Positions 21,040 to 34,601 of a DNA stretch of 64,000 nt are shown here, one piece after another. The position numbers and the translations under genes were made by a program. Origin of the DNA: Anaeromyxobacter dehalogenans 2CP-1 (GTDB lineage Bacteria > Myxococcota > Myxococcia > Myxococcales > Anaeromyxobacteraceae); the NCBI RefSeq assembly GCF_000022145.1, contig NC_011891.1, positions 1 to 64,000 on the forward strand. The letters run 5' to 3'. The notes beneath the pieces are model-generated. The model had not been told where the DNA came from and did not search any database. It was given only the letters and a program-made list of their open reading frames with translations. Each line of letters starts with the position of its first letter. The first letter of the stretch is position 1.

Positions 21040-21112
21040 GCCTGGGTAGCTCAGTCGGTAGAGCAGGGGACTGAAAATCCCCGTGTCGCTGGTTCGATTC
21101 CGGCCCCAGGCA
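21040..21112 (+). tRNA. tRNA-Phe (anticodon GAA), integration target
   Basis: The 73-nt cloverleaf has acceptor arms GCCTGGG/CCCAGGC, anticodon stem GGGGA/TCCCC with loop CTGAAAA (GAA), and a GGTTCGATTCC T-arm. CCA is not encoded. Its 3' part from 21071 is supplied by the integrated element and is repeated at 34476-34518, so the gene remains functional after integration. Confidence 0.95.
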
Positions 21113-22295
21113 CTCCTTCCGAGCTCGAACACCATCGTGGCCCGCCAGATCGCGAGATCTGGCGGGCCTTCTGATTTTCGTGTGGCAGGTTCTCCGCCAC
21201 AACGGGAGGCGCTCCGGTTCCCAGGAGTCCCTCCTCTCCCACGAGTCGACCCAGTGCTGCTTCCGATGTGCTTCCGACGCTGGGCACGGCGACGGACGGG
21301 AGCTTCGCGACCGCGCGGCGGAGGTTCTCGTCGTTCAAGCGGCCGTACACGAGGTCCACCATGCGCGTCGAGGCGTGGCCCAGGAGCTTCGCGACGACGG
21401 CCGAGTCCTCGCCCTGCTGCTTCATCCACGACGCGAAGGTCCGGCGCAGGTCGTTCGGGCTCACGCGGGCCACGCCCGCGTGCGCGCACGCGATCCGCAG
21501 GTCTCGGCCGACGTTCGCCCACGCCTCCACGACGAAGCCCTTCTTCGACGGGTCGCTTGCGAGTTCGTCGGCCAGCGGCTGCAGGATCGGAACCGAGCGC
21601 CGCGCCTTCGCGGTCTTCGTGCCCGGGAGCACGAGCCAGCCCGTCTCCAGGTTGACGTGCGTGTCCCACCGCAGCGCCTCGACCTCGGATCGGCGCGCCC
21701 CAGAGTAGACCGCCACCATGATCCAGCGCCGCCGCTTCGCGTCGAGCACGGCGAGGAGCTTCCCGAACTCCTCGACGGAGAGGTGCCGCTCGCGCGGCCG
21801 GTACGTCACGCGGAACGGTGGGAAGATCGAGCGCGGGTCGCCCACGTAGAGCTTGCGGGCCTTCGCCGTCTCCAGGGCGACGCGGAGGGTCGAGAGTTCC
21901 TTCCGCACCGTCTCTCGGGCCGCTCCCTCACCCAGCCGCTGGTTGATGTAGTCCTGCACCTTGTCGAGCGAGAGCGCGTGGACCTGCTGATCGCCGAAGA
22001 CGCGGACCAGATGGCCGCCCTTCTTCGCGTACATCTCCAGCGTCCCCTCGGCGCGGTCCGAGCAGCCAACCTCCACGATGAAGCGGACGGTGTCCTCTAC
22101 GGTGTGCGGGGCCGCGTTCGAGGCCGCACCACCCGAAGCATGGGCCTCCCGCTCGAACTGGCGGAGGCGGTCGCGGGCGATGCGGCGGTCGGCCGTCCGG
22201 AGGGAGCGAGTGACCCGCTTGCCGTCCGGGCCGTAGAACCAGCCGTAGTACCACCCGTTCTTCTGGCACGACTTCCGGAAGAGGTGCTCGCCCAC
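21051..22295 (-). CDS. int: tyrosine recombinase integrase
   Basis: The integrase catalyses site-specific recombination at the tRNA-Phe 3' end. The 414-residue protein has an N-terminal arm-binding region, a SAM-like core-binding domain (about 65-150) and the catalytic domain. Visible catalytic residues are Arg201 (SGARRSE), Lys227, Arg284 (NDLRRTF, with Asn at the usual first His), His307 (LLGHAS) and nucleophile Tyr317. GTG 22295 follows GGAGGA. About 40 C-terminal residues are encoded by the terminator and attL, and the stop at 21051 lies inside the tRNA gene, so integration supplies the final codons. Confidence 0.93.
   Translation of the reverse strand: MGEHLFRKSCQKNGWYYGWFYGPDGKRVTRSLRTADRRIARDRLRQFEREAHASGGAASNAAPHTVEDTVRFIVEVGCSDRAEGTLEMYAKKGGHLVRVFGDQQVHALSLDKVQDYINQRLGEGAARETVRKELSTLRVALETAKARKLYVGDPRSIFPPFRVTYRPRERHLSVEEFGKLLAVLDAKRRRWIMVAVYSGARRSEVEALRWDTHVNLETGWLVLPGTKTAKARRSVPILQPLADELASDPSKKGFVVEAWANVGRDLRIACAHAGVARVSPNDLRRTFASWMKQQGEDSAVVAKLLGHASTRMVDLVYGRLNDENLRRAVAKLPSVAVPSVGSTSEAALGRLVGEEGLLGTGAPPVVAENLPHENQKARQISRSGGPRWCSSSEGVPGAGIEPATRGFSVPCSTD
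21071..21113 (+). repeat. attL, 43-bp direct repeat
   Basis: This copy of the core runs from the tRNA-Phe anticodon loop to its 3' end and is identical to 34476-34518. Similarity, now imperfect, continues to about 21180, including a following terminator hairpin. Confidence 0.95.
21139..21168 (+). terminator. tRNA-Phe terminator carried by the element
   Basis: A 12-bp stem (GGCCCGCCAGAT/ATCTGGCGGGCC) with a 6-nt loop is followed by TTCTGATTTT. It resembles the hairpin at 34541-34570 that served the tRNA before integration. It also lies inside the 3' end of the integrase frame on the other strand. Confidence 0.75.
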
Positions 22296-22477
22296 GGGTC
22301 CTCCATGCTGCCGTCGATGAAGGCTTCGAGATCGCGTTCAGCCACGCGGACCGCGCGGACGCCAAGCCGTGCGCGACCGATCTGCTGCATGAGCCGGTAG
22401 GCGGTCGAGAGCGGGACGCAGAGCCGAGCGGCGATGGCTTCGGCGTTCAGAAGCTGGGTGGGCGTCCTCGCGGTCAC
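22097..22477 (-). CDS. excisionase-like DNA-binding protein overlapping int
   Basis: The first half reads TQLLNAEAIAARLCVPLSTAYRLMQQIGRARLGVRAVRVAERDLEAFI, a winged-helix/MerR-like excisionase pattern. GTG 22477 is chosen; GTG 22546 is also in frame and lies beside the operator palindrome. The frame overlaps the start of int by 199 bases, and its last 65 or so residues (Arg/Ser/Thr/Pro-rich) look like shadow coding. The functional part may therefore end near 22295, or expression may be coupled to int. Confidence 0.6.
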   Translation of the reverse strand: MTARTPTQLLNAEAIAARLCVPLSTAYRLMQQIGRARLGVRAVRVAERDLEAFIDGSMEDPWASTSSGSRARRTGGTTAGSTARTASGSLAPSGRPTAASPATASASSSGRPMLRVVRPRTRPRTP

Positions 22478-22551
22478 CGGGGACCTGCTGGCCGGCGCGG
22501 TGCGGTGGGCGGCAGGGCCGCCGGGGCGAGGGAACTCGGCGCTCACCCTCT

Positions 22552-22562
22552 ACTGTAACAGT
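22552..22562. promoter_or_regulatory. operator palindrome copy 1 (before the excisionase gene)
   Basis: The 11-bp site ACTGTTACAGT (minus-strand reading) lies 6 bp upstream of GTG 22546. It matches the site at 23864-23874. A TACAGT -10-like hexamer is embedded in it, so a bound regulator would block transcription of the excisionase-integrase unit. Confidence 0.5.
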
Positions 22563-22597
22563 GCGCTGGAGGGGTCCTGACCGGCGCGGCGTGAGGG

Positions 22598-23185
22598 TCA
22601 TGCCGCCACCTGGCGGGCGGCCCATGTCGAACACCCGAGCGCCTCCGCGACCTCACGCCACGAGTGGCCCTCCTCCCGGAGGCGCTGCACCTGCACGCGC
22701 TCGGGCCGGGCGACCTGGGGGCGGCCGATGCGCTTCCCGGCGGCCCGCGCCTTCTGGATGCCGAGCTTCGTGCGCTCGCGGATCAGGTCGCGCTCGAACT
22801 CGGCCACCGATGCCAGCACGCCCAGGATGAGGCGGCTCATGGCGTCGCCCCCGGGCCGGATGTCGATGCCCTGCGTGATCGCGATGAACCGGACGCCGGC
22901 AGCGTCGAGGTCGCGGATGTTCGCCAGCACGTCGAGGGCGGAGCGGCCGAAGCGGTCGAGCTTCCAGACCACCACCGCGTCGAGCTTCCCGCGCCGGGCC
23001 GCCTCCATGAGCCGCTGGAGACCAGGGCGGTCGTTGCGGGCGCCGGAGCCCGTCTCCTCCATGTCGAGGACGACCTCGCCGCCGAGGCGTGCAGCCGCGC
23101 CGCGAAGCTCCTCGCGGGCGAGGCTGGCGTTCTGGTCGAGGGTCGAGACGCGGTGGTAGGTGGCGATCCGCGCGGGGTTGTTCAT
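22598..23185 (-). CDS. serine recombinase (resolvase/invertase family)
   Basis: The 195-residue protein starts ARIATYHRVSTLDQN with the nucleophile Ser14, followed by DRPGLQRLMEAARRGKLDAVVVWKLDRFGRS and SVAEFERDLIRERTKLGI, all hallmarks of small serine recombinases. A C-terminal helix-turn-helix (SWREVAEALGCSTWAARQV) binds DNA. ATG 23185 is the natural start. It may resolve multimers of the circular element or invert DNA; no inverted-repeat target was identified. It is divergent from the HTH gene at 23340. Confidence 0.92.
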   Translation of the reverse strand: MNNPARIATYHRVSTLDQNASLAREELRGAAARLGGEVVLDMEETGSGARNDRPGLQRLMEAARRGKLDAVVVWKLDRFGRSALDVLANIRDLDAAGVRFIAITQGIDIRPGGDAMSRLILGVLASVAEFERDLIRERTKLGIQKARAAGKRIGRPQVARPERVQVQRLREEGHSWREVAEALGCSTWAARQVAA

Positions 23186-23303
23186 CGCGATGGTGTAGCA
23201 ATACGTCCAGTTCCCACCAGCCCGTGACCATGGGGCCAACCCCGCGATCTGCGGGGGCGTGAGGCGGCCGTTCCCAGGGTCCCCTTCCCGCAGGCCGTGC
23301 CCG

Positions 23304-23321
23304 GCGTGCCGGCCGGCACGC
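23304..23321. promoter_or_regulatory. perfect 18-bp palindrome, putative operator
   Basis: GCGTGCCGG is followed directly by its complement CCGGCACGC. The site lies 18 bp before GTG 23340 in the divergent space between the serine recombinase and the HTH gene, where an autoregulatory operator would be expected. Confidence 0.45.
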
Positions 23322-23339
23322 GACGGCAATCTAGGGTGA

Positions 23340-23780
23340 GTGAAGACCATCGACGCGAAAACTCGGGCCAAGATCGCCCGGGGATGGGCCGGCTCGTCCC
23401 TGACGCAGGACGAGTACGCGGCGAAGTACGGGATCAGCGCCCGGACGCTCCGCCTGTACCGCTCGCGGTATGCCAGCCGGCAACCTCCAGTGGACCAGGT
23501 ACGCGCGATCATCACCGGCGCGATGCAGGAGCTTCGAGACCTGCTCGACAGCCTGGATCGCGAGGAGCCCAAGGCGGCATGCCACTCGGTCACTTGCACT
23601 GACCAGAAGCTCGTCGAAGATGCGGGCGTCGTCGGTCTGAACGACGACGCGGTGAACGCGCTAGTCGCGTCCGTGCGTGCCGAGTTCGCCGCGCTTCCCG
23701 AGGCCGAGGAGGTTGGTTCGGCGCGCCCGAGGGCGCGGCCCGGCTCGTTCTTCGCGGACATGGACGCCCTCCCGAGGTAG
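23340..23780 (+). CDS. small HTH protein of unknown function
   Basis: The 146-residue protein has an N-terminal helix-turn-helix (SLTQDEYAAKYGISARTLRLYRSRY, residues 19-43). A helical middle part and an Arg/Pro-containing tail ending FFADMDALPR follow. AGGG lies just before GTG 23340. The HTH resembles those of transposase-associated or regulatory proteins. It is a candidate for the regulator that binds the element's palindromes, but this is only position-based. It lies directly upstream of the primase-helicase. Confidence 0.6.
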   Translation: MKTIDAKTRAKIARGWAGSSLTQDEYAAKYGISARTLRLYRSRYASRQPPVDQVRAIITGAMQELRDLLDSLDREEPKAACHSVTCTDQKLVEDAGVVGLNDDAVNALVASVRAEFAALPEAEEVGSARPRARPGSFFADMDALPR

Positions 23781-23863
23781 CCGGCGTTCGAATGCTGCGG
23801 TTGCGTCTCGCGGCGCCTCTTGGTCGAGCAGCGATCCTGCTGAACGGCGGAGCAGCGTTTCGT

Positions 23864-23874
23864 ACTGTTACAGT
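23864..23874. promoter_or_regulatory. operator palindrome copy 2 (before the primase-helicase)
   Basis: The perfect 11-bp site ACTGTTACAGT ends 2 bp before GTG 23877. TACTGT (23863-23868) could serve as a -10 element for a nearly leaderless transcript. Together with copy 1 it suggests co-regulation of excision and replication. Confidence 0.5.
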
Positions 23875-23876
23875 CG

Positions 23877-26224
23877 GTGGTGAGCCACTTCATCGCGAAC
23901 AACGAAGTCAGCCCGAGTCCCACCTCCACCCCCGACTCCACCTCGAACGACGCCGCTGCCCGTCCGAAGACGCTTTCCGAACGCCACTGCCAGCACCTGG
24001 TGGACAGCGGTCTCACCGCCGAGACCATCGCTCGTCGCGGCTTCTACTCCTGTTCCGACGCGGAGGGCCGCAAGATCTTGAACTGGTCCGAGCGCGTGCG
24101 CGGCAACGCCAGCGGCCTGGTGATCCCGTACCCCAACGTCCCTGGGTACGCGAAGATCCGCCCGGACAGTCCCCGGCTGCGGTCGGGTGAGTGGCCGGCG
24201 CCCGCGAACGAGCCTCACCACGACTACCGCGTCGGAGACGCGCGCTGGGAGCCCGAGCCGGAGGTCAGGAAGTACGAGGCGCCCATCGGCAGCATGCCGC
24301 ACGCCTACATCCCGGTCGACGCCTGTGCCTCGTTCTCGGACGCCGAGGTTCGGCTGTACGTCACCGAGGGTGAGAAGAAGACGGAGGTGCTGTGCCAGCA
24401 GGGCCAGCCCTGCATCAGCATTCCCGGCGTGTCGAACGCCCACGACGTCGACCACCGGCGCGAGGCCCAGGACTGGGGGGGGGCTCGGAGTGGAAGCTCT
24501 CGCCGGAACTCCGCAAGTACGTGCTTCCCGACCGCGAGGTCTGTCTCGTGTTCGACACGCCCGACATGGAGAAGAACGTGAACGCGATCCGCGCCTGCAT
24601 CCGGGCGGCGCGCATGATCAAGGAAGAGGGCGCGGTTCCGCTCGTCGGCTACGTCCCGCCGATCCCGAAGCTGGAGAAGACGGGGATCGATGACTACTTC
24701 GTCAACGCGCAGAAGCGGTCCGTCGCGTACCCGAAGTCGTACAACCCGCTGGAGGGCGACTTCGCAGACGCCAGGCCGGTCGGACCGAACGAGTTGATCG
24801 AGTGGCTGGTCGAGCAGAAGGACGAGGCCGGCTGGGAGCGCGACGACGTTCTCCCGGAGCTTCGGCGGGCGGCGATCTGGGCGCGCGTGTGGCACGAACG
24901 CGAGCGCCGCGCGTGGCACGCATGGACTCGGCGGGCGGCGAAGACCTTCTTCGTCGGCCAGGACGAGATCGAGCAGATGGTCGCACACCTCGGTCTTGCG
25001 CAGCGCGACGAGCCGAAGGCGTCGTCGTGGAACGACTTCGATGACGGGAAGATCCTGGAGCACTGCGTCCCGATCCTGAACCACGCCTTCCGGTTGCTGG
25101 TGGACCGGAACGGGACTGAGCGCATTTTCCAAGTGAACGACCGGAACGAGGCCACCCTCCAGCAGTCGAACGCCAACATCCACAAGGCGCTCCACGACGC
25201 ACTGAAGGCAGAGTTCGGGACGGTTCCGCCGGCCCGCCTGCTCGAAGCATCGAACGTCCTCTGGAAGAAGGAGACGGCCCGCCTCGCGGAGGAGCCCGAG
25301 CCGTTCTGCTTCGCTGGGGACGACCGGGTCTGCTTCAAGCGGTTCGACTGGAAGCCCGCCGAGGCACCGTTCCCCGCGTGGGAGGAGTTCCTGACCCGCC
25401 TTTCCGACCGCGAAGCGTTCATGGCCTTCGTCTGGTCGTGCTTCGAGAAGAAGAACCGCAGCCGCCAGTACCTTTGGCTCCGAGGCGAGGGTCAGGACGG
25501 CAAGTCCAAGGTCCTGGGCGTCCTGCTTGAAGTCTTCGGACCGGCGGGTGCCGCGATCAACAACTCCCACGTCGAGAAGGGGAACCAGTTCTTCTTTTCG
25601 GCGCTGTACGGGAAGCGGCTGGTCATCTACCCCGACTGCAAGAACGCGAAGTTCGGCATGAAGGAGATCGTCCGGAACTGCACGAGCGGCGATCCGGTGG
25701 CGGTCGAGTTCAAGGGCGAGACGCCGTTCACCACCGTGCTCCGGATCAGGTTGTTCGTCGCGAGCAACACGAAGCCCGAGTTCACGAGCCAGGCCGCCGA
25801 CCGCTCTCGGATCATCTACGTCGAGGTCGCGGAGTCCGCGAGCAAGGACGACCCGACCTGGGAGGAGCGGCTGAAGGCGCAGCTTCCTGGGTTCCTCTGG
25901 TCGTGCAAGGCCACCTACGAAAGGGTGTGCGCGCACCACGGCGACATCCCGGTCTCGGAGCAGACCAAGGCGATGCTCGACGAGGCGGCAGTGGCGTTCG
26001 AGGAGCAGTTCCACGACATCTTCGACGCTCACTTCAGTGAGGCACCGGGCGAGGCCGCACCCGCGAAGCCCGTCGCGACGATCCTGCGCGGCTACGGGAT
26101 GAACAACAACCAGATCAACGACTTCAAGGCGTGGATGGGACGGGTCCACCGCGTCGTGTATCGGCCGAGGAAGGACGGCCGTGTATACGAGGGACTCGCG
26201 TTCCTTCCGAGCAGCGTCCGGTGA
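23877..26224 (+). CDS. TOPRIM primase-D5-like helicase, frameshifted at a G9 run
   Basis: Two overlapping frames form one protein of about 780 residues. The first (from GTG 23877) holds a DUF3854-like TOPRIM domain with RLYVTEGEKKTEVL; after the shift the TOPRIM Asp motif CLVFDTPDMEKN follows. The second half is an SF3/D5-type helicase with Walker A LRGEGQDGKSK and LVIYPDC, continuing to the stop at 26222-26224. The shift lies in nine G at 24475-24483; ten (or seven) would restore the frame. It should initiate replication of the excised element. Its stop codon lies in the first iteron. Confidence 0.8.
24475..24483 (+). other. G9 homopolymer at the primase frameshift
   Basis: Nine consecutive G follow GACT. 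In the upstream frame the reading leaves the conserved sequence here; the downstream frame resumes as GGSEWKLSPELRKYV. The run could be a sequencing error, a true mutation, or a site of transcriptional slippage or phase variation. Confidence 0.7.
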
Positions 26225-26394
26225 CGAAGGTGACGGAGGATGACGGACCCGTCCGTCATCTTCCGTGCGCCGTCCTGGGCGCTCGCGCGTCGAGGTGACG
26301 GACGTGACGGACGAACTTCAAATCAGAGCAGAAGAGAGAAGCGACTTAGGCTCTACGAGAACGCCCGCCTCATCCGTCCGTCACCTTCCGTCAT
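26222..26394. repeat. iteron array, candidate replication origin of the element
   Basis: At least eight copies of [G/A]TGACGGA occur in 173 bp directly after the helicase gene: 26222 (variant), 26230-26237, 26240-26248, 26251-26259 (inverted), 26295-26303, 26304-26312, 26376-26384 (inverted) and 26386-26394 (inverted). 26239-26260 is a 10-bp-arm inverted repeat with a 2-bp spacer; 26295-26312 is a perfect tandem pair. An A-rich, low-GC patch (26313-26350) lies between the clusters, like an unwinding element. No gene occupies 26225-26454. Confidence 0.7.
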
Positions 26395-26420
26395 TCCGGA
26401 TCGCCACCGCCGTGCGCTCT

Positions 26421-26431
26421 ACGGTGACAGT
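26421..26431. promoter_or_regulatory. degenerate third copy of the operator palindrome
   Basis: ACGGTGACAGT matches ACTGTTACAGT at 9 of 11 positions, and flanking bases also resemble copy 1 (CTCTAC before, GC after). It lies between the iterons and a convergent gene, so it is not an obvious promoter operator; a role at the origin is possible. Confidence 0.3.
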
Positions 26432-26454
26432 GCCTCTGTGGCAGGTCATGGTGC

Positions 26455-27756
26455 TCAGCGAAAGGTTCGCCAGCAGTCGAACACAGCCTCAAGGAACGGG
26501 ATGAGCGCCTGCTCTTCCTCGGATACTCGCTCAAGAATGATGCCGGTAGGTTCGCGACGAAACAGAGTCGTCAGCGCGAACCGCACTCCGCTCTTGTCGG
26601 CAGCGACCGTGTGCACGGCTTCACGGCGATTCGGATCTTCGGCGGGACGAACCCCAGACTTGCCGGTCCCTAACCAGATTTCGTTACTCGAAATCAACGC
26701 ATCGGCTCGGGTACGTTCGACCTCGGGTCTGATCGCCTGCCACATCAGAACGTGAAGGTCGGTCTTCTCGTCCGGTCTCGGAACTCCGATGAAACGAACC
26801 AGCTTGCCATCGCGCAGGAGATGGAACGTATGAACCAGGTAACCGTCCGCCCGAAGAAGCTGAACCCCTACTTCGTGGAGGTGGCGTGCTTGGTCTCGGA
26901 GCGGAAGATCCTTTATTCGCTTCCAGTCAGGGGGCGCCGCCGACTTGCTCTCGTACTTGGCGCGTAGCCTCTCTAGGTCCTTCTTAGTTCCCTTCTTGAT
27001 GGTCCGTGTTCGGGGCACATAGAAGCGACCTCGCTTGAGGTCCACGACTGACGTGCGGGCCTCCTGCGAAGCGGACATGCACGCTGGCCGCCCCGCGAGA
27101 AACTCCTGAGCGTATCCAGCGGACTTGTCGCATTCGATCAGGCCGCACTCCGACCCGCCCGCTACAACGTGCGCGTCGCTTACCAACGCAGAGAGTAGTC
27201 CGTAGACAGAAGCAAGAGCCTCAAGGAGTTCTCTGCCCGGGAGGTCAGGCAGTTCCCAACGTCGTTCGACGACAAGGATCCCGTCCTCGCGGACCTCGTG
27301 AGGAGCCGTCGCAGCGATGGCGACAGCGATCTCTTTGCAGGAGGCAGTCGGAGGACCCTCGAACGGCACGAACTCGCCGGCTTCGACATACCCACGCAGA
27401 AGCCGAACGTGAACGAGACTCGCAGTGTCGAGGTCCCCTTCCTTCACGACCTTATTGCGAAGGTCGACTATCCACCGCGCAGCGTCGCTCTCGCCGAGCC
27501 GTTTTCTCCATGCGGCGTACCACTCATCGAATCCCGGCGCTGAAAAGCGCTCCTTCTGGAGAACGAACGTAACGTTGCGAAGCTCCTGGATCGCCGAGTT
27601 TAGAAACGTGCGGAACCCATCGGGATCCTCGTAGTTGTTGAGCGCCTCGTGCCATAGCCGGTGGGCCGATTCGAGCCGCCGGTGAGTGTTCCGGATCGGA
27701 CACGACTCGTGGACGACCGTGCGGAAGCTGGCCTTGCGCTTGCTGCGGCTCGCCAT
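26455..27756 (-). CDS. unknown 433-residue cargo protein
   Basis: No family was recognised. The protein is soluble. It has a helical N-terminal third (about residues 25-120) with FLNSAIQELRNVTFVLQKE, RWIVDLRNKVVKEGDLDTASLVHV. A central part contains GGSECGLIECDKSAGYAQEFLAGRPACM, then a basic segment (RTRTIKKGTKKDLERLRAKYESK) and a C-terminal domain with FIGVPRPDEKTDLHVLMWQAIRPEVERTRADALISSNEIW. The LRN-x-V-x-K-x-GD segment recalls HEPN-like proteins but lacks the RNase motif. It runs convergently to the primase-helicase and has lower GC than chromosomal genes. Confidence 0.65.
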   Translation of the reverse strand: MASRSKRKASFRTVVHESCPIRNTHRRLESAHRLWHEALNNYEDPDGFRTFLNSAIQELRNVTFVLQKERFSAPGFDEWYAAWRKRLGESDAARWIVDLRNKVVKEGDLDTASLVHVRLLRGYVEAGEFVPFEGPPTASCKEIAVAIAATAPHEVREDGILVVERRWELPDLPGRELLEALASVYGLLSALVSDAHVVAGGSECGLIECDKSAGYAQEFLAGRPACMSASQEARTSVVDLKRGRFYVPRTRTIKKGTKKDLERLRAKYESKSAAPPDWKRIKDLPLRDQARHLHEVGVQLLRADGYLVHTFHLLRDGKLVRFIGVPRPDEKTDLHVLMWQAIRPEVERTRADALISSNEIWLGTGKSGVRPAEDPNRREAVHTVAADKSGVRFALTTLFRREPTGIILERVSEEEQALIPFLEAVFDCWRTFR

Positions 27757-27966
27757 TCGCTATCCCCAAATCCAGTGTAGCAGGCGAGCGGCGGGCGATC
27801 GCTCATGGTTCCCAAGGTTGTTTCCGCGTGGCGAGGTCAGGCCACATGATTCGGGGGTTGTAGATGTCCACCGTCGTGCTATCCCGCCGACCGATGGTCT
27901 TCCGCCGCGCCAGACGGACGGGGCCCGGCCGCCGGTAGGCTGCGCGGCTCGGCCCCGTCCACGACG

Positions 27967-27982
27967 CCAGGGTTTACCCTGG
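27967..27982. promoter_or_regulatory. inverted repeat before the small-gene cluster
   Basis: CCAGGGT, 2-bp spacer, ACCCTGG. It overlaps the upstream edge of the GGGAGGAG ribosome-binding site of the gene at 27996, so it could be an operator or an RNA hairpin limiting translation. The rest of 27757-27995 holds nothing recognised. Confidence 0.4.
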
Positions 27983-27995
27983 GAGGAGCGCGAGC

Positions 27996-28208
27996 GTGGC
28001 GACGTGGACGATCCGGATCGACGCGGAGGAAGTCTCGGTTACCTACCGCGAGGGCGACAAGGTTCAGCACTGCGGTAACTCCGAGCGCGTGCTGGAAGCC
28101 GAAGTCGTGGGCTGGGTTCACAGCGAGGCGGACGCTTTCGATCGCTTGGTGACGCCCTCGGGCATCTTCGTTCGGCAGGTCGAGCCAGCCGGCGGGGCGC
28201 GCTCGTGA
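27996..28208 (+). CDS. small unknown protein (70 aa)
   Basis: GTG 27996 follows a strong GGGAGGAG. The product, MATWTIRIDAEEVSVTYREG..., is acidic, looks beta-rich and has no signal or membrane segment. It overlaps the next gene by four bases (GTGA), indicating a small operon in the element. No family was recognised. Confidence 0.55.
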   Translation: MATWTIRIDAEEVSVTYREGDKVQHCGNSERVLEAEVVGWVHSEADAFDRLVTPSGIFVRQVEPAGGARS

Positions 28209-28474
28209 GCGCGAAATTGAAGAGGGTGGGGCTCCGCCCTGGCACCCGCTACCAGACCCGGGACGCCTTCTTCACGCGGGCGAACGAGTTCTTCATCCTG
28301 GAGGACTTCGAGTGGGTGAAGCCGCTCCGACTCGACCTGGAGCCCGGCAGCATCGGGATCTTCGAGCGCGAGGACGGCCAGAAGATCGTTGTCCGCTACG
28401 AGGACGATCCCAGAGACGGCGACGAAGAGCAGGAGTCCGGTATCCGCCCGACGACGGGCGTCTTGCGACGGTAG
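28205..28474 (+). CDS. small unknown protein (89 aa)
   Basis: GTG 28205 overlaps the preceding stop. The protein is basic at its N-terminus (SAKLKRVGLRPGTRY), aromatic in the middle (FFTRANEFFILEDFEWVKPL) and acidic near the end (YEDDPRDGDEEQE). No family was recognised. It is probably coexpressed with the 70-residue protein. Confidence 0.55.
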   Translation: MSAKLKRVGLRPGTRYQTRDAFFTRANEFFILEDFEWVKPLRLDLEPGSIGIFEREDGQKIVVRYEDDPRDGDEEQESGIRPTTGVLRR

Positions 28475-28520
28475 ACTGCTGAACGCTGTATCCGCCGTAC
28501 GGTCACCGCGAGAGAACGGC

Positions 28521-28985
28521 ATGCCCCAGGTCGATTCGCTGCTCAGGTCGGACATCCTCGCTTCTGTTGGAGGGTTTCGAGCACCCGCATCGGAGCCGAT
28601 CTGGGCGGACAGTGGTGAGCCCACGACAGGAGGTGCTCAGCTTTTCTTCTACGTGACGCGAGCCAAGCACCACTTCGCCTCGCTGGGAGTCTTCTGGGTC
28701 CACGCGCTGTTCAACTTCCTTGAGGATCGGTTGGAAACCGAGGCCCTCGTCCAAGTGGCGACTCGCAGCTTATGTCACGAGGTGACGCCCGCCGAGGTTG
28801 TCGACGCGCTTCAAAGTCGGATGGGCCGTCCGCTGGAAAATACCGAACGCGCCACGATGCTCATGACGGGCGGAAGAGCTCTGCGCGTGTTTTCGATGCT
28901 CGTCTCCGAAGTGTGGTGGGCCGGCCTGGTCGAGGCCGAGGGTGCGTGCGTAGCCGTGTTCCTCGATTCGACGTCGAAGCAGTAG
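28521..28985 (+). CDS. unknown protein, 3' end possibly cut by IS66
   Basis: The 154-residue protein from ATG 28521 is mostly helical (LFFYVTRAKHHFASLGVFWVHALFNFLEDRLETEALVQVATRSLCHEVTPAEVVDALQSRMGR). Its TAG stop (28983-28985) lies within the first bases of the likely IS66 left end (GTAG at 28982), so the original gene may have been longer. Removing the IS would fuse it in frame to the segment at 31398. No family was recognised. Confidence 0.5.
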   Translation: MPQVDSLLRSDILASVGGFRAPASEPIWADSGEPTTGGAQLFFYVTRAKHHFASLGVFWVHALFNFLEDRLETEALVQVATRSLCHEVTPAEVVDALQSRMGRPLENTERATMLMTGGRALRVFSMLVSEVWWAGLVEAEGACVAVFLDSTSKQ

Positions 28986-29054
28986 CCGGCAACTCTGCGC
29001 GTCGCAGGCATCGCCGCCCTTCTCCCGCTGCGTTCGAGTTCGCCGCCGACCCGC

Positions 29055-30518
29055 TCAGGCCGACGGCTCGGGTCTGGGTGGCGTCCAGTTGTGCGGCAGG
29101 AGCTCGTCGATCCGCGACGCCGGATGCGTCTGCACGCGGAGGAGGACGTCGGCGAGGTAGTCGACCGGGTTGATGCCGTTCGCCTCGCACGTCGCGATGA
29201 GCGAGTACAGGCCGGCCAGGTTCTCGCCCGCCGCGTCCGTTCCAACAAACAGGAAGTTCTTCCGTCCGAGGGCGCAGACGCGCAGCGCGCCCTCGCTCGC
29301 GTTGTTGTCGATGGGTAGATGGGGATCGGTGAGGAAGAGCGTCAGCTCGTTCCACTGGCCAAGCGCGTAACCGATCGCGACGCCGATCGGCGAGCGTGGC
29401 GGATGCCGCCCCTGCACGGCATCGAGCCACGCCCTGATCTCGTCGATGACGACGCGGCTGCGCGTCTGCCGCATCGCGAGGTGCTCCGGAGTGCCGAGCA
29501 GATCCGCGTCGAGCGCAGCGCGCTCGATCTTGTACAGCTCGAGGATGAGCTCCATCGCGTGCTTGGCGGCCGCTGTCGCGGTCGACTGGGCGTCGAAGAA
29601 CTTCCTGCGAGCGTGGGCCCAGCAGCCGGCGCGTTCGCGTCCGCCCGGCAGCGTCACCTTGTTGTAGCCCTCGTACCCGTCGACGAGCAGCTTGCCGATC
29701 GTGCCTTCAAGCACGCGGACCGGAGTCTCGCCCGATCGGCTGCGGGAGAAGACGTACGCGATCAGCTCACGCTCCGCTTCGTCGCGCGCGATGAAGCTCC
29801 AGATCCAGGCGGTGCGCGTCTTCCCCTTCGCCTGCACGCGATGCGTCGTCTCGTCCGCGAGCACGATCTCCTTCTCGGCGACGAGATGCAGGAGCCGCTC
29901 GTAGAGGGGGTCCACCAGCTCCGCGGTTCGGTGGAAGAGATCGCCGAGGGTCGAGTCGTTCACCTCGACTCCGGTGCGCCGGTACGCCTTCGCCTGGCGG
30001 TAGAGCGGGAGTGAGTCGGCGCACTTCGAGACTGCCACCTGCGCCATGAACGTCGGGCCGAAGCGCGTCTTGTCGAACACCTTCGCCGGCCCGTCGGCGG
30101 TGATGATGGTCTCGCCGCACCGGCAGCGGACCTTCTTCTGCACGTGGAGCTGCCGCTCGATGCGCGCGGGGACGAGCTCGTACAACTCCGTCACCTTGCC
30201 TTCGCCGAGCGGCGTGAACTCGTGGCCTCCGCACTTCGGGCACGACTTCTGGTCTTCGCGGACCTCGTGAACGATCTTGCGAGCGACGAGCTGCCGCTTC
30301 TTCTCGGCGTTCTCACGCCGCTTCTGCTGGGCGGCGATCCGCTCGGCCTCGGCGTGCGCCGGATCGCGGATCGCCTCGGAGATCGGCGGCATCTTCTCGG
30401 AGCGCGCGCCGAACTGGTGGCGCTGCAGCTTCTCGAGCGTCGCTTCGACCTGCGCGAGCCGGGCCTCGAGCGCTTCGGCTCGCTCGCGCCACTCGCAACG
30501 ATGATCGTCGCCGCCCAT
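29055..30518 (-). CDS. IS66 transposase TnpC (DDE)
   Basis: The 487-residue transposase has an N-terminal leucine-zipper-like coiled coil, the zinc-finger pair CPKCGGHEF...CRCGE, and the DDE core (VLADETTHRVQ with the first Asp, LLVDGYEGYN with the second). The C-terminal segment is LPIDNNASEGALRVCALGRKNFLFVGTDAAGE, typical of IS66. The length is normal and the frame is intact, so it may be active. Confidence 0.95.
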   Translation of the reverse strand: MGGDDHRCEWRERAEALEARLAQVEATLEKLQRHQFGARSEKMPPISEAIRDPAHAEAERIAAQQKRRENAEKKRQLVARKIVHEVREDQKSCPKCGGHEFTPLGEGKVTELYELVPARIERQLHVQKKVRCRCGETIITADGPAKVFDKTRFGPTFMAQVAVSKCADSLPLYRQAKAYRRTGVEVNDSTLGDLFHRTAELVDPLYERLLHLVAEKEIVLADETTHRVQAKGKTRTAWIWSFIARDEAERELIAYVFSRSRSGETPVRVLEGTIGKLLVDGYEGYNKVTLPGGRERAGCWAHARRKFFDAQSTATAAAKHAMELILELYKIERAALDADLLGTPEHLAMRQTRSRVVIDEIRAWLDAVQGRHPPRSPIGVAIGYALGQWNELTLFLTDPHLPIDNNASEGALRVCALGRKNFLFVGTDAAGENLAGLYSLIATCEANGINPVDYLADVLLRVQTHPASRIDELLPHNWTPPRPEPSA

Positions 30519-30531
30519 CGGCGACTGTAGA

Positions 30532-30930
30532 TCACGCCGGAGCGGGCTTGTCCATGGGACGAGCGGCCTGAGGATCCGACTGGGACGGCTGCCAGTGCTC
30601 AGGCCGGCGGACGCGTCCGAAGTCGATGCCGTCGAGGAGCATCGCGAGCTGTGTCGCGTCGATCTCGACGGCCATCGTCGATGGATCCATGTGGGGCAGC
30701 TTGAACTGCCCGCGCTCGAGCCGCTTGTACACCAAGACGAACCCGCCCTTGTCCCACGTCAGGATCTTCACGCGGTCCCACCGCCGCGAGACGAAGACGA
30801 ACAGGTGGCCCGAGTACGCGTCCTTCGCGAGCTCGTTCTGCACGATCGCGTGAAGGCCATCGATCGACTTGCGCATGTCGATCGGCGTCGAGCCGATGTA
30901 GATGCGCACCGAGCGCGGGATGGTGATCAC
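30532..30930 (-). CDS. IS66 accessory protein TnpB
   Basis: The 132-residue protein matches the IS66 Orf2 family: IYIGSTPIDMRKSIDGLHAIV, GHLFVFVSRRWDRVKILTWDKGGFVLVYKRLERGQF. GTG 30930 overlaps the tnpA stop (GTGA). It is needed with TnpA and TnpC for IS66 transposition. Confidence 0.95.
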   Translation of the reverse strand: MITIPRSVRIYIGSTPIDMRKSIDGLHAIVQNELAKDAYSGHLFVFVSRRWDRVKILTWDKGGFVLVYKRLERGQFKLPHMDPSTMAVEIDATQLAMLLDGIDFGRVRRPEHWQPSQSDPQAARPMDKPAPA

Positions 30931-31319
30931 GACGCGAGCGCAGCGGCGAGGGCGCGGACGTACGCGAGGTCGGTGCCGGCGGTGAAGCGGAGGCGGGCAC
31001 CGGACGGGAAGAGCAGCTCCAGGGCGGCGTCCGCGGCGACCGCTGCGGCCGTGTCTTGCCGCGCCTTAGGCGCGGACGCTACCACGCGCACCGGCACGAG
31101 ACGCGAGCCCTCTGGAGCGGCGCGACGCTCAGGTACTTGATCTGAGCGCTCCGGCGCCTGCGAGACGAGCGGTCGCGACTCTTTGCGCAGGCGGTAGATC
31201 CAGTAACGCAAGTTGCTGAGCGGGATTCCTCGCTCCGTCGCGAACTCGCGCTGCGGGAGATCGCACGACTCGAAGTCGGCGACGAGCTTGGTCCAGCGGC
31301 TTCTGTCCTGGTCGGCCAT
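30927..31319 (-). CDS. IS66 accessory protein TnpA
   Basis: The 130-residue protein begins MADQDRSRWTKLVADFESCDLPQREFATERGIPLSNLRYWIYRLRKE, the usual IS66 TnpA helix-turn-helix. ATG 31319 follows GGAGGA at good spacing and is preferred over ATG 31361. It is the first gene of the coupled tnpABC set. Confidence 0.9.
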   Translation of the reverse strand: MADQDRSRWTKLVADFESCDLPQREFATERGIPLSNLRYWIYRLRKESRPLVSQAPERSDQVPERRAAPEGSRLVPVRVVASAPKARQDTAAAVAADAALELLFPSGARLRFTAGTDLAYVRALAAALAS

Positions 31320-31436
31320 GAGGTCCTCCGCGAGAGAAGCGCGGAGGATCTCGTCGCTCATGGGCGCGCGCTACACGTCCAGCGCCGGGCGGTTACGGAG
31401 TCCGAGCACCCGGCGGACGAGAAGCTCCCTGAGTTC

Positions 31437-31694
31437 GTGTCCACCGTGGTAACGCCGGTCGGCACCTTCAAGCGCGTGTCGAGCCAGGACCTGAAGTTCG
31501 CTGTCGTTTACGTCCCCGAGGACCGGCGCCGCGCGGGGCAGGACGGCTTTTGCCACGGTTGGGCGGTCGCCGTTGAGCGAGCGCAGGTTCTCGCGGACGA
31601 GGTGCGCGCGAAGTTCGAGGCCGAGCCACTCGTGGTGGCCGTGACGTGCCGGCGGCGCCGGACGGAGCGCGTACAGCGGACCGACGAGGAGTGA
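31437..31694 (+). CDS. small unknown protein, possibly 5'-truncated by IS66
   Basis: GTG 31437 gives an 85-residue product (STVVTPVGTFKRVSSQDLKFAVVYVPEDRR...). The frame is open back to the IS66 right end at 31397, so this may be the 3' part of a gene interrupted by the insertion. No family was recognised. Confidence 0.4.
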   Translation: MSTVVTPVGTFKRVSSQDLKFAVVYVPEDRRRAGQDGFCHGWAVAVERAQVLADEVRAKFEAEPLVVAVTCRRRRTERVQRTDEE

Positions 31695-31844
31695 CCTGAG
31701 CACGGCGTTCGGTCGACCCCGTGCCCGTTCCCCTGGCGGAAGAGCAGCCGGGCAACCGGATTCCCACTTACGCGCACCCGTTCAGGAGCGTCTCTGCAAG
31801 TCGCTGATTTCGATCCCGATTCCGCGCGAACTGGACGCCGCACC

Positions 31845-31861
31845 TTACACATGGCTTGTAA
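31845..31861. promoter_or_regulatory. inverted repeat and -10 element of the three-gene cassette
   Basis: TTACA-N7-TGTAA overlaps the -10-like TGTAAT (31857-31862), 57 bp before ATG 31919. A weak -35 (TGGACG at 31832-31837) lies 19 bp upstream. The HTH protein encoded in the same operon could bind it. Confidence 0.4.
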
Positions 31862-31918
31862 TCTGTCAAGTAGCGCGTAAAGTCAGTGCCGGAGAATCAA
31901 CCCCAAACAGGACGATGC

Positions 31919-32710
31919 ATGCCGCCCCTGCCGGAGTACCCGCGAGTTCTGTTCAAGAAGTCGCCGCTGAGGCTGGTCGTCGGCCAGATTCGGTTCCCGC
32001 TCCAACTTCGGCTCGCCGACACTGCCTTCACTGCTCCGTTTCAGGATGCGCTGGCGGACGACTATCCGGTCGCAGCCCGGGAGCAGCAGGTCGCCTTCCA
32101 AGTGACCCCCAAGGGTGGTCTTCAGGCTGCTCCCTCCGAAACACTCCTTCGCTTCGCTAGCCGAAACGGCGACTGGGCCGTCGTCCTCGGCGAGTCCGCG
32201 CTGACGCTGGAAGTGCGAGGCTACTCTGCCGTCGAGGAGTTTTCGTCGCGTTTCGAAAAGGTGCTCGGCGCGGCGAAGGAACGACTGAGGTTGCGCGAGA
32301 GGTCGAGGCTCGGGCTTCGATACATCAACGAGTTCAGACACGACGCGGGCCGGTCGCTAGCTGACTGGGCCAAGCTGATGAACCCAGAGCTTTTGGGATT
32401 CGCTGGGAACAACCTGCTCGGCGGAACCGTCGAGCACATGGCCCATGAAGTAAGGGTGCGCCGCGACGACGGCGTTCTCGCGATTCGGCATGGTCTGCTT
32501 GTGGGCGGCGTCGTTGAGCCGATCCCTACGGCACCAGTCGCGGAGGGGCGCTTTTACCTCCTCGACATGGACTACTACGACGAGCGCCCGAGTCCTCTCG
32601 ACATCGCCGCGACATCACGAGCACTGACCGCGTACAACGATGTGATGTACCGCTTCTTTAGATGGTCTCTCGGTGAATCGATGTACAAGCACCTGGAGCC
32701 CAACGAATGA
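31919..32710 (+). CDS. TIGR04255-like protein
   Basis: The 263-residue protein resembles the sporadically distributed TIGR04255 family: it begins PPLPEYPRVLFKKSPLRLVVGQIRFP and later has RSRLGLRYINEF. The family's activity is not known to me, and it often appears in mobile or variable regions. ATG 31919 follows AGGA at good spacing; GTG 31886 is an alternative. The TGA stop overlaps the next ATG (ATGA), so the first two genes of the cassette are coupled. Confidence 0.7.
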   Translation: MPPLPEYPRVLFKKSPLRLVVGQIRFPLQLRLADTAFTAPFQDALADDYPVAAREQQVAFQVTPKGGLQAAPSETLLRFASRNGDWAVVLGESALTLEVRGYSAVEEFSSRFEKVLGAAKERLRLRERSRLGLRYINEFRHDAGRSLADWAKLMNPELLGFAGNNLLGGTVEHMAHEVRVRRDDGVLAIRHGLLVGGVVEPIPTAPVAEGRFYLLDMDYYDERPSPLDIAATSRALTAYNDVMYRFFRWSLGESMYKHLEPNE

Positions 32711-33552
32711 GCGCTGCGCTGGCTACGCTTGCTACCGGGGCGGACACGGGCATGTACAGGCCCGCTCACCCCGAGAACGAGAACGTGATTCTGGCGGCTT
32801 CGCTGTGGGAGTCGCTGTACGGCTTCCTCGTCCGCGCGCCGGGGCCTCGCACGGGCCAGGACACGATGCCGGCTCCGAAGCACACAGCCGTCCGAAACTG
32901 GTTCGCGCTCGTGGACGTTCAGACGCAGCCGACCGGGTACGGATGGATATCCGCTCCGGTTCTCCGGGCGTATGTCGCCGAAGGTGACCCCCAGGACTTG
33001 GACGAGACCGATTCAGGAGAACAAGCGGTTTCGTTCGCCGCCGAAGCGAACGTTGGCGGTCCCCACGCACTGGACGAGAGAGCACGCCCGCTTTCGACTG
33101 TGGCCGTCGCACCCGAGGCGCAGGCGGTCACGCGCCTCGTCACGCTCACTGGTCTGGAGATGGAGAGGATCGCTTCCCTCCTCGGCGTGTCGAGAACCAC
33201 GCTCTACGCCTGGCGCGACGGATCGAAGCCACGGGGGAGCAAGCGTGATCACCTGCTTCAGGTCGTCGCCGTCATCGAAGAAGTTGCCCGCCGGTTCGGG
33301 GAGCCCAGAACCGTCGCTGCTTGGCTCCTAACGCCGTCGCCCGCAAGTAACCTCATGCCCTTCGATGTGATCAGGGAGCGCCGGTATGAACTGTGCCGGG
33401 GCATGCTGACGCGAAGGAGGACTGCTCGCCCGACGCTGCCGCAGCGGGCGCCCCGACGCCTCTCGGCAACGCAACTCCGGGAGGGACTCGACCGGATGTC
33501 GGCAAAGCCCTTCGCGGACGACTACGAGCCTGAGGAGGAGCAGGGCGACTGA
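32707..33552 (+). CDS. HTH protein with DUF2384 (MbcA/ParS)-like C-terminus
   Basis: The 281-residue protein has an unclassified N-terminal half, then a helix-turn-helix (MERIASLLGVSRTTLYAWRDGSKPRG). A segment like the antitoxin Xre/MbcA/ParS domain follows (EPRTVAAWLLTPSPASNLMPFDVIRERRYELCRGML). Such domains usually belong to antitoxins that also bind their own promoter. It is coupled to the TIGR04255-like gene and is 3 bp from the next gene. Antitoxin-like or regulatory function is inferred; no RES-type toxin is present. Confidence 0.6.
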   Translation: MSAALATLATGADTGMYRPAHPENENVILAASLWESLYGFLVRAPGPRTGQDTMPAPKHTAVRNWFALVDVQTQPTGYGWISAPVLRAYVAEGDPQDLDETDSGEQAVSFAAEANVGGPHALDERARPLSTVAVAPEAQAVTRLVTLTGLEMERIASLLGVSRTTLYAWRDGSKPRGSKRDHLLQVVAVIEEVARRFGEPRTVAAWLLTPSPASNLMPFDVIRERRYELCRGMLTRRRTARPTLPQRAPRRLSATQLREGLDRMSAKPFADDYEPEEEQGD

Positions 33553-33555
33553 CGT

Positions 33556-34392
33556 ATGGCGGGAGGAGGAGAGCACGCCGGACAACAACTGCTCGCCAGG
33601 GGCTGGCGACAGGGAGCCCTTCTTCCTGCGCGTGCGCCGGTGCGTTCGACGGAGTTCGCTCCGGGTGTCCCGCCGCAGCCGCGCGACAGGGTTCGCGATG
33701 CTGGCGACGGCGTCCTGGTCGTCGCGAGCCAAACGTGCGACCTGGCGCGAAACCCTGCCAGCGATCCGGAAGTCGAATGCCTCCGCGCGTTCTGGACCAG
33801 CAAGGAACGCATCATCCGTCCTGCTGCGAGCAACTCGGGCCGGCATTTCCTCCTTCGCGAGCGCGTGGACCCGGATGGCAAGAAGGAAGGTCTCATCGCG
33901 GACGCCACCGCCCGAGTGCTCGTCACCAAGGAGTCGCTTCTTCAGTTCGCCCCAGACCAAGGATGCGCGAACGCCCAGACGGAGCGCAGGTTCCGGGAGT
34001 GGCTGGGTCGCCGGTTCAGCCGAATCGCGATTCCCACGGCGCACGTTGAGGCGATTCAGAGGCCCATCGTTGAAGCGCTGAAGCTCGAAGACGGGGACGA
34101 GAGCATCCTTCCGCTACTGCGGGGCGTTAAGGAGGTGCTCTTCGCGGTGGGGAACGACGCAGTGCCGTTTCAGGTTCACCTGCTCTTCTTGGCGGAGGAG
34201 GGCCTCACGGACGACGAGGCGCTTTCAGCCGCCGATTCGGAGCGGTTGGGTGCCTGGTTCGGTGAAGCACTGGCTGCGGCAGGTGAGGCTGAACTTCACG
34301 ACTGGGAACTCGTTGATACAGGGAGCCTCAGCTTGCGCGACTACCTCGCGTTCACGCCCCTTCCCCTCGATGAGTACAGCCTGGAAGGCTGA
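33556..34392 (+). CDS. unknown protein with VVASQTCDLA motif
   Basis: The 278-residue soluble protein starts 3 bp after the HTH gene. A conserved-looking motif VLVVASQTCDLAR (about residues 53-65) lies near the N-terminus; the rest includes FREWLGRRFSRIAIP and a C-terminal LHDWELVDTGSLSLRDYLAFTPLPLDEYSLEG. No family was recognised. As the last gene of the cassette and the last gene before attR, it is in the position where satellites carry defence or toxin cargo. That role is an inference. Confidence 0.6.
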   Translation: MAGGGEHAGQQLLARGWRQGALLPARAPVRSTEFAPGVPPQPRDRVRDAGDGVLVVASQTCDLARNPASDPEVECLRAFWTSKERIIRPAASNSGRHFLLRERVDPDGKKEGLIADATARVLVTKESLLQFAPDQGCANAQTERRFREWLGRRFSRIAIPTAHVEAIQRPIVEALKLEDGDESILPLLRGVKEVLFAVGNDAVPFQVHLLFLAEEGLTDDEALSAADSERLGAWFGEALAAAGEAELHDWELVDTGSLSLRDYLAFTPLPLDEYSLEG

Positions 34393-34475
34393 ACTGCTTC
34401 CGATGTGCTACTCGCCCCGACGGCGCTTTGGAAATACCTTGTGAAGACGCGGTCGTCGCGGACGAGACGTAGGGC

Positions 34476-34518
34476 CTGAAAATCCCCGTGTCGCTGGTTC
34501 GATTCCGGCCCCAGGCAC
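34476..34518 (+). repeat. attR, 43-bp direct repeat (tRNA-Phe 3' remnant)
   Basis: Identical to 21071-21113. The sequence before 34476 has no tRNA character, so this is only the displaced 3' end of the original tRNA gene; excision between the repeats would restore the gene. Confidence 0.95.
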
Positions 34519-34540
34519 ACCAACTTCGCTCGAACATCTC

Positions 34541-34570
34541 GGCCCGCCAGATCGCAAGGTCTGGCGGGCC
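34541..34570 (+). terminator. original terminator of tRNA-Phe
   Basis: An 11-bp stem GGCCCGCCAGA/TCTGGCGGGCC with an 8-nt loop, 23 bp after attR. It resembles the element-borne hairpin at 21139-21168. Confidence 0.65.
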
Positions 34571-34601
34571 GTCTGGTCTTCGGCCACCGCGAGCCGCCGG
34601 A

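Follow-up and report, generated by a model that had tools for sequence, protein, structure and literature searches.

A tRNA-Phe-targeted integrative element of Anaeromyxobacter dehalogenans encodes different integrase C-termini in its integrated and predicted circular states

The element and its tRNA-Phe target site

The window, the whole stretch of DNA that was analysed, consists of the first 64,000 nucleotides of contig NC_011891.1 from Anaeromyxobacter dehalogenans 2CP-1 and contains an integrative element at positions 21071 to 34518, both core repeats included (~13.4 kb; circle, 13,405 bp). The ends of the element are marked by an exact 43-bp core (attL, 21071-21113; attR, 34476-34518; plus strand), which is the longest stretch common to both ends and is found twice, against zero matches expected from shuffles of the window. 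The attL core constitutes the last 43 bp of a tRNA-Phe(gaa) gene (21040-21113, plus strand; ARAGORN) that is rebuilt by the left end of the element, and its minus strand codes for ...EPATRGFS. A genome of the same genus (G002) carries the tRNA-Phe site without the element, and the joined flanks align to it (~91%) without a break at the junction, indicating that the insertion is real. The locus is a tRNA-targeted integrative element, as each of its ends carries a core equal to the tRNA 3' end and a relative has the unoccupied site. A different element of ~6.1 kb occupies the same tRNA-Phe gene in another member of the genus (L144; G001:C338:54000-62500), where the related integrase is a broken remnant.

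The genes between the repeats encode a tyrosine integrase, an excisionase-like HTH protein, a serine recombinase, a TIGR04255 protein and a P4-type primase-helicase (TIGR01613 profile), along with unknown genes. IS66-family transposase genes also lie inside the element on the minus strand at 29055-30930 (TnpC, PF03050, E=2e-88; TnpB, PF05717, E=4e-37), with a possible tnpA of the same insertion at 30927-31361 (minus strand). Because it harbors this insertion sequence, the element may be an impaired copy that is perhaps immobile now. The product of 32707-33552 (plus strand), which adjoins the TIGR04255 gene, resembles the Xre/ParS antitoxin of RES-Xre systems, and no evident RES toxin was seen beside it.

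The similarity between the two ends continues imperfectly past the core (21114-21172 and 34519-34572), where the left end of the element copies the terminator region of the host tRNA-Phe gene. The element-borne intrinsic terminator forms a hairpin at 21139-21168 (plus strand), and its host counterpart is located at 34541-34570. The rebuilt tRNA gene therefore still has a terminator, and the minus strand of the hairpin codes for the integrase. Stretches similar to this terminator region are present in the linkers of the integrases from G017, G018 and G021 in the same family.

The integrase gene in two states

In the integrated state, int occupies 21051-22295 on the minus strand and encodes a tyrosine integrase of 414 residues (PF00589, E=5e-15; PHROG 1 integrase, E=1e-53). 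The frame runs antisense through the tRNA terminator hairpin and then through the core, which begins at 21071, and terminates in the D-arm of the tRNA with a stop codon that ends at 21051. The protein ends in ...GAGIEPATRGFSVPCSTD, its C-terminus being FSVPCSTD. The path of the frame through the terminator and attL core, the length and this terminus, all described in the initial annotation, were reproduced on recomputation.

How does the gene end when the element is a circle? The predicted circle junction joins one core to position 34475 and below, so that GGCCCTACGTCTCGTCC comes after the core when read in the direction of int. The frame then yields 430 residues, ends in GPTSRPRRPRLHKVFPKRRRGE and stops at 34408. 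The circle-only 3' end of int, comprising the tail GPTSRPRRPRLHKVFPKRRRGE and the stop codon, spans 34408-34475 on the minus strand, and the first base of its first codon resides within the core. Recombination thus exchanges the last six residues of the integrated form for 22 residues in the circle form, as the initial annotation had correctly calculated. The crossover position within the core has no effect on the int product.

The catalytic residues R285, H307, R311 and Y317 of a tyrosine recombinase are invariant in the family alignment, and the codon of the catalytic Tyr317 lies at 21345-21347 (minus strand). Residues 319-414 are predicted to be disordered (AlphaFold pLDDT <50, about 30). 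Since Tyr317 is catalytic and everything beyond residue 318 is predicted to be disordered, the catalytic domain should be complete in both forms of the integrase. The attP core is therefore located within the int frame behind the catalytic domain and is read in frame in both states, which is the arrangement of the Mx8 integrase. At its other end, int is overlapped by the excisionase-like HTH ORF (22097-22546, minus strand; weak matches to PHROG 66 excisionase, E=1e-3, and HTH_17, E=0.008). This overlap of ~200 bp is in a different frame and recalls that of uoi over int in Mx8.

The int coding sequence also contains repeats that are shared with the right end of the element. A 16-nt direct repeat, CTGCTTCCGATGTGCT, lies within the linker coding sequence at 21257-21272, where a second TGCTTCCGA follows at 21269-21277, and the matching copy at 34394-34409 overlaps the TAG stop codon of the circle tail. 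Such a 16-nt repeat between the element ends was matched in 0 of 100 shuffles. In the circle, the two copies would be positioned at -159 and +66 relative to the core. Relatives carry other repeats at similar places, most of them about +50 to +82 nt to the right of the core, and some of these are no longer than chance. In the majority of elements, the distance from the core is +60 to +74 nt. Judging from their positions, the repeats look like arm-type integrase sites. With an arm repeat at a set distance from the core and the stop codon situated there, the attP layout would set the length of the tail.

Reading frame and circle-only tail among relatives

To survey relatives, genome contigs were scanned with the integrase alignment, and further searches of the phylum and of viral contigs were added. 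Distinct integrases with a tRNA-Phe-type core no more than 900 nt from the catalytic domain were counted, giving 84; some of these are related by descent, a distant subfamily of Burkholderia type is among them, and a few have cores of the similar tRNA-Asn type. The core is read through by 59 of the 84 integrases, and 55 of these 59 share one phase across 28 different linker lengths (binomial, 3e-10 by distinct linker length). The remaining 25 stop before the core and are distributed evenly over the three phases (7/9/9). This absence of phase preference without read-through makes the short-stopping group an internal control. The initial annotation had asked whether the frame is kept in related elements, and the shared phase answers in the affirmative. 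It had also held that relatives whose integrases stop ahead of the core would speak against a switch; such relatives do exist but form a minority. Because ~30% of the core-bearing relatives (25/84) stop short, the overlap is not obligatory and the tail is dispensable in principle.

One of the four off-phase integrases (L064) has a linker that differs by one base from that of its close relative L056, and it looks as if a frameshift had occurred recently or the sequence contained an error. Two related integrases, L240 and L314, use the two remaining frames to read through the tRNA-Phe core, giving NQRHEDFQ and RTADTGIF, and an intact tRNA lies beside the core of L240. No plasmid-borne relatives were found at E 1e-20.

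The circle reading is also represented by natural sequences. In 14 IMG/VR viral contigs, the int ORF spans a lone core that has no adjoining tRNA. An attP form is likewise found on a bacterial contig of 32.8 kb that lacks a tRNA (L143, G165:C336) and whose genome has its intact tRNA-Phe elsewhere, and on a further contig (L033) with no tRNA beside the core. These attP forms indicate that the read-through exists in relatives as contiguous DNA and is more than a construct on paper. The L143 contig has no terminal overlap, so it is recorded as an attP form on a contig and its circularity is unproven. In two viral contigs (L312 and L177), the frame extends ~160 and ~74 residues past the core, and the tails of these two may form a larger domain.

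Across 31 elements, the tail measures 2-160 residues (median 22) and varies in sequence as well. Basic tails prevail (24 of 31, with five neutral and two acidic; net charge +8 to -2). The mean net charge of +3.0 modestly exceeds the +1.8 of shuffled DNA (z=3.3), and the other two frames give 1.4 and 1.9. The tail in the window is among the most basic of the family. A conserved basic motif common to the whole family was rejected, given the spread in net charge. The initial annotation was thus right that circle and integrated states encode different C-termini, but its suggestion of a basic tail that acts in DNA binding is not supported by the family, whose tails differ in sequence, length and charge. 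The basic character agrees with DNA contact as a candidate role of the tail, and contact with a neighboring integrase protomer or with excisionase and service as a stability tag are other possibilities suggested by sequence.

Is the circle-only tail maintained as protein? A tree of the 31 elements was constructed from the integrase domain and the linker upstream of the core, with the tail left out, and 12 pairs sharing no branch were drawn from it; as the control, the tail DNA was also read in its two remaining frames. Synonymous codon differences in the tail number 35 in the int frame versus 12 and 9 in the two control frames, a value reached by 1 of 5000 permutations (per codon, random pairings), and the int frame is best in 10 of the 12 pairs. 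The proportion of synonymous to non-synonymous differences separates the int frame from the controls in Fisher's test over all pairs (p=3e-6) and over the six closest (p=3e-5). Three pairs in which both members are integrated elements give 16 versus 6 and 1 (p=1e-4), and the frame effect holds where the tail was sampled 8-11 kb away from int. Related tails are exemplified by KKSRHSKWLERLE/KKSRYSKWLERLE (L056/L064), AFRRVKPLGIEVRK/AFLWPKPLKIKARK (L036/L037), PEPRGALSGNPARSVKR/PEPRGASQGNSARTAKR (L062/L031) and RAPKRANPLRKLRAV/RAPKPSPRKRLLRAV (L033/L231). The tails of certain other close pairs (L367/L371; L054 versus L033) are unrelated. These codon patterns place the circle-only tail, read in the frame of int, under protein-level constraint across the family.

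When differences in the tail are simply tallied by codon position, the three counts are almost even (120/120/128), with little third-position excess. Such tallies are uninformative at these distances, so the tail signal rests on synonymous codons together with residue similarity. The idea that the int frame stays open longer at the tail than the other frames was rejected, as frame +2 is often longer. The best match of the tail in the window is the tail of L026 (GRAPKVPRPRLRVIFPRPDGTK), a weak similarity (p=0.0035 before correction for 27 comparisons). Because its nearest tailed relatives match it weakly, the constraint is established at the level of the family and not for this particular copy.

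A probable two-state integrase and its relation to known systems

We propose a probable two-state model in which the integrase exchanges its C-terminus upon integration and the circle tail, selected in the family, tunes the circle form. The catalytic domain is followed by a linker predicted to be disordered, whose coding sequence holds one set of putative arm repeats and the tRNA terminator, and then by the tRNA-Phe core. In the circle reading only, ~22 further codons lead up to the second arm-type repeat, the site of the stop codon. Recombination would remove this last exon and put six codons of the tRNA gene in its place, so that the circle would produce the 430-residue integrase and the integrated element the 414-residue one. 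The tail would tune the circle form, most likely by favoring integration through contacts with DNA, a neighboring integrase or host proteins. Its loss would leave the integrated form less active or with a different specificity, as reported for Mx8.

Could the swap instead be a by-product of compactness, the attachment site having been packed into the end of the int gene, with a disordered C-terminus that tolerates anything and two forms that act alike? The predicted disorder beyond residue 318, the variability of the tails, the relatives that stop before the core and the tendency of GC-rich DNA to leave every antisense frame across the core open would all fit such an origin. The single phase of nearly all read-through integrases, set against the uniform phases of the short-stopping ones, and the excess of synonymous change that the circle-only tail shows in the int frame argue against it and make it unlikely. 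A second alternative regards the circle tail as a stability tag that causes the free form to be degraded and leaves the integrated form stable. It has a direct precedent in the repressor of mycobacteriophage BPs (PMC4557955), and some tails have small or hydrophobic ends (LRAV, LRVV, TGAV and ARSL). However, the tail in the window ends in RRGE, many others have basic ends and no terminal motif is common to the family, and this role is considered improbable. Constraint on DNA alone, through integrase or host-factor binding sites beyond the core with the likeness of the translated tails as a side effect, would accommodate the arm-type repeats at a fixed distance from the core and the short DNA patterns common to several ends, but it is very improbable because a DNA constraint has no reading frame and the int frame contains three to four times as many synonymous differences as either of the others.

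The proposed two-state integrase bears on a central question in mobile DNA, namely what prevents renewed excision once an element has integrated. If a DNA rearrangement rewrites the enzyme that carries it out, it would be a switch without a regulator. The comparison suggests that the tail swap is conserved and selected across a broad group of integrases, and it supplies many natural pairs for tests of the tail. It also implies that the C-terminus of annotated integrase genes in prophages and islands is often wrong for the free form. We consider it an even call whether the tRNA-Phe integrase lineage of Myxococcota and phages as a whole has a selected C-terminal exon that is joined only in the circle, with the integration state written into the enzyme, one attP arm being coding and the other lying at the end of the exon.

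The closest known counterpart is the integrase of Mx8 (Int/IntP; Tojo 1996; Magrini 1999), which, as published, shares a tyrosine integrase, an attP inside int behind the catalytic domain, a tRNA target and a new 3' end. The published accounts of Mx8 describe a recombinant int with a new 3' end and a changed activity or specificity upon integration (PMC6070905) and a replacement of 112 residues by 13 that makes the product less active (PMC4701971). Besides the region of its catalytic Tyr, the Mx8 protein (NC_003085, 533 residues) has a linker, the stretch STGLEPVLLGS, which resembles tRNA sequence read in antisense, and a long tail. The present element differs in exchanging 22 residues for six and in using another tRNA. 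Membership of the Mx8 integrase subfamily by descent was rejected (26% over 215 residues; no match to the family HMM).

Other systems share parts of this anatomy. The Burkholderia phage phiX216/phi52237, as reported, carries attP within the integrase gene, at the 3' end, and has its attB in tRNA-Phe (PMC3548686); it is a P2-like phage, unlike the present element, and is likened to it here by its published description. Burkholderia-type prophage integrases in our sample (L182, L196, L225 and L405) are members of a distant subfamily and share the frame through the core. Streptococcal ICEs in rumA are described as swapping the integrase 3' end upon integration, such that the C-termini of the free and integrated forms differ (PMC4701971), but they use a serine integrase, a protein-coding target and a frame change. 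According to the account of mycobacteriophage BPs, the repressor gene contains attP, and its viral form bears an ssrA-like tag that is lost upon integration; the BPs integrase has a C-terminal proteolysis signal as well (PMC4557955). As described, BPs resembles the present element in placing attP within a coding sequence and in altering the C-terminus of a regulatory protein, and it differs in that the altered protein is the repressor rather than the integrase and the effect is the loss of a degradation tag. Integration-dependent immunity of the BPs type was rejected for this element, in which the core lies within int and not within a repressor gene. By its anatomy, then, the element appears to follow a principle that is already established by Mx8, by phiX216 at tRNA-Phe and by a few others. 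What seems to be new here, from comparative sequence analysis, is the breadth of frame conservation, the codon-level constraint acting on an exon present only in the circle, and the way the arm-type repeats are placed, with one attP arm embedded in the coding sequence.
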